A stretch of DNA of 64,000 nucleotides, from positions 62,001 through 126,000 of the forward strand of contig NZ_JAGQBU010000003.1 of assembly GCF_024345795.1 (NCBI RefSeq), written 5' to 3'. This stretch comes from Synechococcus sp. J7-Johnson (GTDB lineage: Bacteria > Cyanobacteriota > Cyanobacteriia > PCC-6307 > Cyanobiaceae). The notes beneath the pieces were generated by a model. That model did no database searches. It saw only the letters and a list, made by a program, of their open reading frames with translations, and was not told the origin of the DNA. Positions 17,041-23,078 of this stretch are shown here, piece after piece (position 1 is the first letter of the stretch; the number at the start of each line of letters is the position of its first letter). The translations under genes were made by a program, and so were the position numbers.

Positions 17041-17114
17041 GGCTCGGTAGCTCAGCTGGTTAGAGCGTGGGATTCATAACCCCAAGGCCGGGAGTTCAAG
17101 TCTCCCCCGAGCCA
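17041..17114 (+). tRNA. tRNA-Met(CAT), elongator type
   Basis: 74 nt cloverleaf. Acceptor GGCTCGG pairs with CCGAGCC (17107-17113), the discriminator is A, and CCA is not encoded. The D stem is GCTC/GAGC and the T arm is GGGAG-TTCAAGT-CTCCC. Anticodon CAT is at 17075-17077. The anticodon stem is TGGGA/CCCCA, leaving an A-C mismatch next to the loop. The paired first acceptor base argues against the initiator tRNA. A CAT anticodon could also belong to tRNA-Ile2 (lysidine), but the loop TTCATAA fits elongator Met better. Confidence 0.9.
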
Positions 17115-19825: not shown

Positions 19826-20911
19826 TCAGGCCAGTGGGCTGAGAGCCGCGCTGCCCAGGACCTGCTCCAGCCGGGCTTTGTCGAGGCGCAGGCCCAGCAC
19901 CACCAGCTCCAGGCCAGGGCTTGCTGCGGCATTGGGCTCGACGGGCTGACGGTCGTACCAGCTGTCGAGCCGTGGACCGACCGCCTGGATCTGCAGGGGC
20001 CTTGGCTTGCCGCTCTGGTGCAACCAGCCCTTTAGCCGCAGAATTCCCTGCTCCACGATCTGCTCGATCAACAGGCGTTCCAGGGCCTGGCGGTCGAAGT
20101 GGCCGGGCAGCTTCAGAGCCAGTGACTGCATCGGCACATGGCTGTGGTCATGGCCGTGATGATCTTCGTGGAGTGGCCTGGCCGGCTCAACCCTCTCCAG
20201 GCCCAGCATCAGCTCGGCAGGCACCTCGCCACGGACCATGGGCAGCACCTGAACTCCGCGGCGGCAGAGCGGCGCCAGCTTTTGCTGGATGGCCGCGCTC
20301 TGGGCGGCATCGAGTCGATCGGCCCGGCTCATCAGCACCAGATCGGCCGCCGCCAGCTGGTCGCGGAAGAGATCTTCAAGGTCGCTGAGGTGGTCGAGGC
20401 TGGGGTCCGCCGCCCGCTGGCGTTCCAGGGCAGCCGGATCGCCCACCACGCTGCCCTGGGCGAGGGCTTCGCCATCGACCACCGCCACTACGCCATTGAC
20501 GCGGGTGCGGGTGCGGATCTCCGGCCACTGAAAGGCCTGGACCAGCGGTTCGGGCAGGGCCAGACCGCTGGTTTCGACCACGATGCCGTCGAGGCGATCG
20601 GCCTTGGCCAGCAGGATCTGCATGGTGGGCAGGAACTCGTCCTGGACGGTGCAGCAGAGGCAGCCATTGGCCAGCTCCACCAGCCGACCCTCCAGCTCGT
20701 CTTCGGGGCAGAAGCCGCAGCTGCGCAGCAGGGATCCATCAATGCCCACTTCGCCGAACTCGTTCACCAGGACCGCCAGGCGCTGACCACTGTTGAGCAG
20801 CAGATGGCGCAGCAGAGTGGTCTTGCCGGCGCCCAGAAATCCAGTCACGACGGTGACCGGCAGCCTCCGGTTGGCGAGCGGCGCCAGCGGGGCTGAGGTT
20901 GGAACTGCCAT
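19826..20911 (-). CDS. cobW: CobW/ZNG1-type G3E GTPase metallochaperone
   Basis: 361 aa. The N-terminal GTPase has a P-loop GFLGAGKTT (residues 24-32), the metal-binding GCLCC motif (83-87), a switch VVETSGLALP and the SRADRLD base-recognition motif. A His-rich patch HEDHHGHDHSH (248-258) and a C-terminal CobW_C domain follow. G3E proteins deliver Co, Zn or other metals to target enzymes using GTP. It starts 2 bases after the hupE stop and shares the cobalamin riboswitch upstream of hupE, which favours a cobalt role here over zinc. Confidence 0.88.
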   Translation of the reverse strand: MAVPTSAPLAPLANRRLPVTVVTGFLGAGKTTLLRHLLLNSGQRLAVLVNEFGEVGIDGSLLRSCGFCPEDELEGRLVELANGCLCCTVQDEFLPTMQILLAKADRLDGIVVETSGLALPEPLVQAFQWPEIRTRTRVNGVVAVVDGEALAQGSVVGDPAALERQRAADPSLDHLSDLEDLFRDQLAAADLVLMSRADRLDAAQSAAIQQKLAPLCRRGVQVLPMVRGEVPAELMLGLERVEPARPLHEDHHGHDHSHVPMQSLALKLPGHFDRQALERLLIEQIVEQGILRLKGWLHQSGKPRPLQIQAVGPRLDSWYDRQPVEPNAAASPGLELVVLGLRLDKARLEQVLGSAALSPLA

Positions 20912-20913
20912 CG

Positions 20914-21624
20914 TCAGGGCACCAGCTGAGTCCAGGCGAACGTGGCGCCGATACCGATCAGCAGCCCCGCCAGCAAGCGCAGGTTGGCGGCTTGAAGCCC
21001 CCGGGCCCAGGAGCGCACCAGGGTGACGGCTGTGATCAGCAGAGCCCCTTGGCTGAGCAGCAGGCCAAGCAGGTAAACCATCTGGGCCGAGATCGACCAG
21101 CCGAGCACCGGCTGGCTCAGCACGCTGCCGTGCAGGGCGATGGCGGGCAGCAGGATCCAGCGGGGCCAGCGGCCGAGCACCACCAGACCGGTGGCCACGA
21201 GTGAAAGAGCCACCAGCAGCTCGCTGCCGGGCAGCACCGGCAGCACCAGGCCGAGGGCGGTGGAGCCCAGGCCGATCGTCAGCAGGGCAATCACCCAGCG
21301 CAGCGGTTGCTGCAGCCCCACCAGCCCCAGGCTGAGCAGGAACAGCAGATGGTCAGGACCGAGCAGGGGATGGCCGAGTCCACTGAGGAAACCAGCCAAG
21401 GCCCCTTCCCTCAGCCCGAAAACCTCCATCAGATGGTGGGCCGAAGCCGGAGCCGTCAACAGCGAAACCAACAGCAGAGGCACCAGTCCCACCAGGGCGA
21501 TGGGTCCTGCAGTGATGCGCCGGGAGCCGGAGGTGGCAGAGGTGGATTGGGGAAATCGGTGAGCGAGCTGGGTTGGCCGTGCTGGCTGCCGCAGCCGAGC
21601 CGGATCCCCTGATAGGGAAGTCAT
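20914..21624 (-). CDS. hupE: HupE/UreJ-family metal permease, probable cobalt importer
   Basis: 236 aa. HupE/UreJ proteins import Ni or Co. After a long basic N-terminus and a signal-like hydrophobic span ending PASAHH, the chain has about six membrane segments. The signature HPLLGPDHLLF near residue 85 (HPxxGxDH) is intact, and the mature N-terminus begins with HH, as in HupE. The start ATG at 21622-21624 lies 8 bases beyond a complete cobalamin riboswitch, so uptake of cobalt (the B12 metal) is more likely than nickel. It is directly followed by cobW. Confidence 0.85.
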   Translation of the reverse strand: MTSLSGDPARLRQPARPTQLAHRFPQSTSATSGSRRITAGPIALVGLVPLLLVSLLTAPASAHHLMEVFGLREGALAGFLSGLGHPLLGPDHLLFLLSLGLVGLQQPLRWVIALLTIGLGSTALGLVLPVLPGSELLVALSLVATGLVVLGRWPRWILLPAIALHGSVLSQPVLGWSISAQMVYLLGLLLSQGALLITAVTLVRSWARGLQAANLRLLAGLLIGIGATFAWTQLVP

Positions 21625-21631
21625 GGTCTGG

Positions 21632-21797
21632 AAATCCGGTCCGCGCCGGCATGAGAGGGAGCACCGGCGGGTGTTCTGACTGGCTCGTGCGGCGGCGATT
21701 GACCGGAGCACGGGCTGCACAGCTGCGGGACAGCGCCGGATTTGCACCGGACTTTCCCCCTTGCCCCCGGTGGCTGATCCCCACCGGAACCGGATTC
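21632..21797 (-). ncRNA. Cobalamin (AdoCbl-type) riboswitch upstream of hupE-cobW
   Basis: Read leftward, the conserved blocks appear in order: a GGGGAAAG-type box, GGTGCAAATCCGGCGCTG, CCCGCAGCTGTG, then AGCCAGTCAGAACACCCGCC at about 21666-21686. The closing helix P1 is AATCCGGT (21789-21796) with ACCGGATT (21633-21640), 8 perfect pairs. The 3' strand of P1 ends 8 bases before the hupE ATG and no purine-rich ribosome site is free, so ligand binding should mask the translation start. The 5' edge is only about 5 bases after the stop of the upstream pentapeptide gene. Confidence 0.93.
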
Positions 21798-21802
21798 AGA
21801 TG

Positions 21803-22360
21803 CTACCGGCAGCCCAGGCTTTCGACCGTGGAGGCCCCGGTGGTGGGGTTGAAGCCATCGGCGCGGGAACAGAGGGCCTTGAGCTGGGAGAGGTCCAGGA
21901 CAGCGTCGCTGAAATCAGCTCCCTCGATCTGTGCGCCTGTGAAGCGGCTCTGCATGAGCATGGCGTTACGCAGCACGGCTCCGCTCAGATCGGCCCCGTC
22001 GAAGCGGGTGGCGAAGGCCACGGCGTCTTCGAGGTTGGCCCCGCTCAGATTGCTGTTGGTGAGGTCGCTGGAGTTGAACACGGCCCCGCGCAGATCGCTG
22101 CCGCTGAGGTCGAAGCCGCTCATCGAGGCTTTGAGGAACTCCTGCTGGTGCAGGTCACGGCCATGCATGTCGGGCTGCAGATCCTGCAGGGACCGCTGGC
22201 CCCGCAGCTCCGGTGCTGTGATCGCCGAGGCACTCCCCACCCCCACGAGCAGCGAGCTGCCCACCAGCATGATCAGGCCCGCAAGCAGCGAAAACCAACG
22301 CCGGAGGACGCGGCGCCGACGAGACGGGTGAGGCCTTGAAACCCGAAGAGCAGACGGCAA
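21803..22360 (-). CDS. Pentapeptide-repeat protein, probably lumenal
   Basis: About 185 aa. A twin-basic-rich N-terminus (SRRRRVLRRW) and a hydrophobic segment (FSLLAGLIMLVGSSLLVG) end in SASAITA, a likely signal cleavage site. The mature part has A(D/N)LxG-type pentapeptide units: FDLSGSDLRGAVFNSSDLTNSNLSG and following, which fold into a right-handed beta-helix. Cyanobacterial proteins of this layout lie in the thylakoid lumen; function is unknown. The start is uncertain: a TTG at 22360 gives a tidy signal peptide, while ATGs at 22396 and 22402 would overlap the divergent upp start. Confidence 0.75.
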   Translation of the reverse strand: MPSALRVSRPHPSRRRRVLRRWFSLLAGLIMLVGSSLLVGVGSASAITAPELRGQRSLQDLQPDMHGRDLHQQEFLKASMSGFDLSGSDLRGAVFNSSDLTNSNLSGANLEDAVAFATRFDGADLSGAVLRNAMLMQSRFTGAQIEGADFSDAVLDLSQLKALCSRADGFNPTTGASTVESLGCR

Positions 22361-22394
22361 AGCGCACGTAGCGTGACAGCTCAAGCTATGGCAC

Positions 22395-23078
22395 ATGACC
22401 ATGTCGTTGCGGGTGGTTGTTCCACCCCATCCCCTGATCGCCCACTGGCTGACCGTGCTGCGGGATCGGGAGACCCCCTCGCCGCTGTTCGCCACCGCCA
22501 TGACCGAGCTGGGCCGCTGGCTCACCTACGAAGCTGTGCGCGACTGGTTGCCCCAGCTATCCCTGCAGGTACAGACCCCCCTGGCTGTCACGGAGGGGAT
22601 GGTGGTTGACCCGTCAGTGCCGGTGCTGGCGGTGCCGGTGCTGCGCGCTGGGCTGGGGCTCTGGGCCGGTGCCCAGACGGTGTTGCCCTCCGCCCGGGTG
22701 GCCCATATCGGTCTGGTGCGGGATGAGCGCACGGGCGAAGCTCACTGCTACCTCGACACGCTGCCGGAGCGCATCGGCGAGCGGGTGGGGGTGATGGTCT
22801 TCGACCCGATGCTGGCCACTGGCGGCAGCCTGATCCAGGTGCTGGAGCGCCTGGAGGCCCTGGGAGTGAGCGGGCAGCGCCTGCGGGTGGTCACAGCCCT
22901 GGCGGCCAGTCCCGGGCTGGGGGCACTTGGCAAGCGCTTCCCGGATCTCACGGTGTACACCGCCTGCATCGATCCCGAGCTGGATGAGGCCTTTCGCATC
23001 GTTCCCGGCCTGGGGGATGCCGGTGATCGGCTCCATGGCTCCCAGTCACCTGTGTTTCCAGAAGAAGCTCAGCCCTAG
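22395..23078 (+). CDS. upp: Uracil phosphoribosyltransferase
   Basis: 227 aa (225 if the second ATG at 22401 is used). It salvages uracil to UMP with PRPP. The PRPP-binding loop is seen in [14 protein letters not shown], the flexible N-terminal region in [13 protein letters not shown], and the uracil site in GLGDAGDR near the C-terminus. Length and order of motifs match Upp. It is divergent from the pentapeptide gene, and aroA begins 37 bases after its stop. Confidence 0.94.

Follow-up and report, generated by a model that had tools for sequence, protein, structure and literature searches.

Gene order and the cobalamin aptamer

Within the window, by which we mean the whole stretch of 64,000 nucleotides that was analysed, a pentapeptide-repeat protein gene, a cobalamin riboswitch, hupE and cobW follow one another on the minus strand. 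The pentapeptide gene (21803..22387; Pfam Pentapeptide, 66 bits) encodes a protein with a signal-peptide-like N terminus, whose exact start is uncertain and whose top matches cover residues 1-194 within the genus. Its stop codon, TAG, occupies 21805-21803, and the first base of aptamer helix P2 (21793) is found 9 bases downstream. hupE (20914..21624), with its ATG at 21624, codes for a HupE/UreJ-family permease and predicted cobalt importer (Pfam PF04955, HupE_UreJ, 62.3 bits; motif HPLLGPDH). cobW (19826..20911) begins 2 nt past the end of hupE and encodes a G3E GTPase/cobalt chaperone that matches Pfam cobW and CobW_C, scores 375 bits against NCBIfam TIGR02475 (cut-off 332) and carries the CxCC motif as CLCC. 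On the other side, a divergent uracil phosphoribosyltransferase-family gene (22395..23078, plus strand; Pfam UPRTase) is a conserved neighbour, adjoining the pentapeptide gene in riboswitch-bearing pentapeptide loci of relatives. The original prediction had described this order and placement, with a cobalt importer and a G3E chaperone as the targets of control, and both the coordinates and the protein family matches bear it out.

The aptamer covers 21649..21809 on the minus strand and aligns to the full length of Rfam model RF00174 (1-189) with 52.5 bits (cmscan, E 3.3e-10), compared to a gathering score of 31.5 bits. An Infernal search with the Rfam models had been suggested as a check on the claim that the riboswitch is complete, and it confirms that claim. 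Judged by this match, the element is a genuine cobalamin riboswitch, which would be expected to bind its ligand. In the RF00174 consensus, the unpaired first columns read uauaauua, which is -10-like; the seed may include promoter sequence. The sole other Rfam match in the window is an ordinary tRNA gene at 17041-17114.

The genome holds three cobalamin riboswitches, each ahead of a hupE-type gene (a call made by Pfam for the gene in the window and by sequences and relatives for the other two). Because metH is present and metE is not, B12 supply is of importance to this organism, and for B12-dependent picocyanobacteria the supply of cobalt is a limit of ecological relevance. That riboswitches precede hupE in cyanobacteria had been noted from the outset as known, in agreement with the literature on riboswitch-controlled hupE in marine cyanobacteria (PMC4284471, PMC7689651). 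Compared with RF00174 elements ahead of hupE in other cyanobacteria, aptamer, B12 box and target gene are alike, and the window differs in detail only, its putative -10 element being fused to the pentapeptide stop and cobW being predicted to be co-controlled. The riboswitch design is already known; the overlap of promoter and stop codon and the conserved P13 platform are useful additions.

Comparative structure of the aptamer and the P13 hairpin

About 130 riboswitch loci were retrieved from relatives and oriented. For 115 sequences we compared the number of times a pair is formed with the number found after shuffling columns, keeping in mind that the shuffles ignore relatedness and that covariation is partly inherited. 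By this measure P2 covaries, its pairs 3 and 4 being formed in 106/115 and 97/115 sequences when shuffle maxima are 73 and 66. In the window P2 closes the aptamer, the 5' strand CCGG (21790..21793, minus strand) pairing with the CCGG (21664..21667, minus strand) that ends the B12 box GTCAGAACACCCGCCGG, with 21793-21790 opposite 21667-21664; the helix links the 5' edge of the aptamer to the end of that box. Loop L5 (21726..21730, minus strand), the putative aptamer half of a kissing loop, reads UCCCG in 114/115 sequences, which is also the published L5 consensus (PMC10653944), and together with the inner pairs of P5 it is near invariant across the 115.

The partner of L5 would be provided by hairpin P13, CCGG[CGCGGA]CCGG (21636..21649, minus strand), which follows the B12 box and is the candidate expression platform. 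Its stem covaries as well: pairs 1, 3 and 4 are formed in 110, 108 and 95 of the 115 sequences (shuffle maxima 91, 103 and 75), pair 2 hardly varies, and the stem types encountered are CCGG/CCGG, TCGA/TCGA, CTGG/CCAG, TCGG/CCGA and others. Loop L13 (21645-21640) contains a Shine-Dalgarno-like GGA and has the form CG[ACT]GGA in 108/115 sequences, with CGCGGA in the window. Its five constant bases are complementary to the UCCCG of L5 once the variable base is bulged out, and this third base, the only one not needed for pairing with UCCCG, is never G in the 108. Other cyanobacterial families follow the same plan, ATCTG[CGAGGTA]CAGAT, with a -10-like box upstream. P13 and L13 offer a testable expression platform that Rfam's aptamer model leaves out. 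A comparison of folding energy with shuffled sequence gave z -0.29, that is, no extra stability, and is uninformative.

Promoter, level of control and competing explanations

The hexamer TAGCAT (21800..21805, minus strand) is a candidate -10 element with four of the six consensus bases, the first three of its bases (21805-21803) being the pentapeptide stop codon. Its position relative to the aptamer is conserved. Focusing on genomes where the riboswitch is linked to the pentapeptide gene, we find TANNNT 13-19 nt before the 'GG' of P2 in 29/31 (shuffle mean 1.4, maximum 6), mostly beginning 14-15 nt upstream of it, and none in the neighbouring intervals of these loci. By locus, the hexamer was found in 34 of 36; the remaining pair, for which the anchor had been set wrongly, show TAGATT on inspection by eye. 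The pentapeptide stop falls at the hexamer in 11 loci (12 with G051) and 11-16 nt upstream in 16, the rest ranging up to 321 nt. Because the distance to the stop varies from 0 to 321 nt and the position of the hexamer is fixed, the hexamer tracks the aptamer, not the reading frame.

These patterns suggest that the riboswitch has its own promoter, the -10 element of which takes in the pentapeptide stop codon; the transcription start region is then predicted at 21791..21795 (minus strand), giving a leader of ~167-171 nt. No -35 element was found and a promoter scan of the region gave nothing; any -35 would lie in the pentapeptide coding sequence. By comparison, the transporter mRNA that carries a cobalamin riboswitch in S. 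elongatus PCC 7942 (Synpcc7942_1373) has a 5' UTR of 153 nt (PMC3219970), a length that fits a start at the aptamer edge. The predicted leader of one relative, G149, measures 151-153 nt; we do not claim that it is the S. elongatus leader, an exact search having returned no S. elongatus match. Transcription has likewise been proposed to start inside a neighbouring gene, iacT, for the alr4027-btuB2 riboswitch of Anabaena 7120 (PMC10878165), which differs from the window in serving B12 uptake rather than hupE and in its gene order. A promoter of this kind would explain how a riboswitch lying only a few bases from the coding sequence on either side can keep transcription of its own.

Taking promoter and platform together, we propose, with a probability of roughly 0.7, that the riboswitch governs hupE and cobW as an autonomous unit, which combines its own promoter at the stop codon with translational repression through L5 and L13. 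RNA synthesis would be directed by the -10 box at the pentapeptide stop and begin at about 21791-21795, at the edge of the aptamer. Once cobalamin or pseudocobalamin is bound, L5 (UCCCG) would pair with L13 (CG-C-GGA, one bulge) and keep P13 and the ribosome-entry region shut, so that less hupE and less cobW would be translated; when the ligand is absent, P13 would open and hupE-cobW would be translated. A role for the L5-L13 kissing loop is established in both translational and transcriptional cobalamin riboswitches, where it is needed for regulation (PMC10653944). In E. coli btuB and env8HyCbl, as we suggest for the window, L5-L13 complementarity governs access to the ribosome-binding site, and the env8HyCbl kissing loop is reported to contain a mismatch and a bulge where the pairing in the window has one bulge (PMC10653944). 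The window places Shine-Dalgarno-like bases in L13 itself, whereas PMC10653944 describes a separate ribosome-binding-site hairpin driven by P13.

Since the L5-L13 design is known and the loop holds Shine-Dalgarno-like bases, translational repression is likely the best reading of the platform, its direction and level being deduced from the sequence. The translational control that had been predicted for the locus stands in part: the lack of a terminator, the L5-L13 plan and the GGA in L13 speak for it, but this GGA is 15 nt from the ATG. CGCGGA would be a weak Shine-Dalgarno sequence, and 15 nt is long for the spacing of one; the same distance is 7 nt in most Prochlorococcus-like loci and mostly 7-15 nt elsewhere ('Prochlorococcus-like' and 'freshwater-like' being our own readings of genome size and base composition). 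A check against the anti-Shine-Dalgarno of the genome itself gave no result, the 16S tail pattern not having been found in the fragmented assembly.

There are other scenarios that might explain parts of this picture. Control could be exerted through transcription (by pausing, or by Rho-dependent or intrinsic termination) or through mRNA decay instead of translation. Some published work points that way: a peak of RNA polymerase lies close to the riboswitch in S. elongatus (PMC3219970), termination has been postulated for Synechococcus 7002, and in Anabaena the transcript of a riboswitch operon rose strongly under cobalt starvation (both PMC10878165). However, no hairpin with a U-run or other terminator-like site is present between the pentapeptide stop and hupE, the interval from aptamer to hupE included, and intrinsic termination was rejected for want of such a site. 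P13, moreover, has only 3-5 bp with the start codon close behind, and its conserved loop holds the Shine-Dalgarno-like bases, so that we regard control at these other levels as unlikely. Similarly improbable, in our estimation, is a scenario in which most riboswitch RNA arises by read-through from the promoter of the pentapeptide gene and, within a pentapeptide-hupE-cobW operon, only the genes behind the riboswitch are under its control. Pentapeptide gene and riboswitch do share a strand, with the stop 9 nt before P2 and no terminator, and the pentapeptide gene and cobW are adjacent or overlapping, operon-like, in 65 genomes. Yet the -10 box keeps a constant distance to the aptamer regardless of where the stop lies, including across gaps of 68-316 nt, and it recurs, less clearly, in hupE-linked riboswitches mostly away from a pentapeptide gene (29/45; shuffles 8.5); the S. 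elongatus 5' UTR, too, is too short to reach an upstream gene (PMC3219970). The original prediction had left the choice between a shared transcript and a promoter inside the pentapeptide gene; the fixed -10 favours the promoter, and some read-through could still occur as a terminator is lacking.

A further scenario concerns the structure itself. The aptamer had been predicted to be closed by an 8-bp P1 helix, GAATCCGG with ACCGGATT, and the window can indeed pair GAATCCGGT with ACCGGATTT over 9 bp. Were this helix real in the genus, it might either close the aptamer or disrupt P13 when no ligand is bound. It reaches 9-10 bp in three relatives (G024, G097 and G119), and most of it is drawn in the minimum-energy fold predicted for the naked RNA, a fold without P13. 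Against this, across the 115 sequences the pairs of the helix form no more often than in shuffles, one outer pair excepted, and among the three closest relatives the congeners G076 and G102 break it beyond 6 bp. What had been taken for the 3' strand belongs to P13 as its 3' arm, and the predicted transcript start falls inside the 5' strand. A functional P1 is accordingly very improbable, and as a closing stem it was dropped on these comparisons, whereas P2 and P13 do covary; membership of RF00174 is unaffected.

Distribution and history of the riboswitch-hupE insert

A cobalamin riboswitch is present in 88/121 genomes of the family, mostly before a hupE-type gene. Of the 106 genomes that have both the pentapeptide gene and cobW, 105 have them next to each other, 65 directly and 40 at a separation of 0.7-1.2 kb. 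This insert consists of riboswitch and hupE in 36/40. The other four, from genus g9 (G008, G091, G063, G114; L133, L336-L338), have kept hupE, and no riboswitch was detected between it and the pentapeptide gene. In most of the 36 the stop lies within ~30 nt of the riboswitch. The tight placement, which had been put forward as the new part, is not peculiar to the window: the order pentapeptide-riboswitch-hupE-cobW is common to 36 sampled genomes.

In a quick CobW tree rooted with an outgroup, the riboswitch-hupE insert is found on the deepest branches and about 8 changes are needed, although change counts give no direction by themselves. A clade of 36 genomes lacks the insert and is probably the marine one. 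Riboswitch-hupE-cobW occurs in 6/20 outgroup loci, near none of which a pentapeptide gene was found. Because pentapeptide-hupE-cobW is basal on the CobW tree and riboswitch-hupE-cobW exists in other families, loss is likelier than repeated insertion; by the same token, entry of riboswitch and hupE into an older pentapeptide-cobW operon was judged less likely. From these comparisons, the order pentapeptide-hupE-cobW was probably ancestral to the family.

Apparent traces of loss exist. One genome (G083; L244/L335) contains a relic ahead of cobW, made up of the pentapeptide stop/-10 TAGATT, the initial portion of the aptamer, a P13 (CCGGCGCGGACCGG) and a short remnant of hupE. Among freshwater-like genomes of the tree, TAGnnT is retained before cobW at seven pentapeptide-cobW loci that have no working riboswitch-hupE between the two genes. 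On balance we lean towards a history in which the block made up of promoter, riboswitch and hupE is ancient and sits between the pentapeptide gene and cobW, the stop doubling as the -10 in some lineages. Several losses of this block from its place would each have brought the pentapeptide gene up against cobW and released cobW from B12 control, in some cases with the promoter left behind. Such natural losses allow one to ask what happens when a cobalt chaperone gene escapes B12 control.

Two further arrangements were encountered among relatives. At three loci (L087, L094 and L100, in G005, G113 and G090) two cobalamin riboswitches stand back to back on opposite strands, ~50 bp apart, each preceding a different hupE paralogue. 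At five others (L060, L091, L112, L113 and L121) the riboswitch in front of a further hupE paralogue is itself preceded, at a distance of ~42-49 nt, by the end of a second COG0523-like gene with 27-30% identity to CobW.
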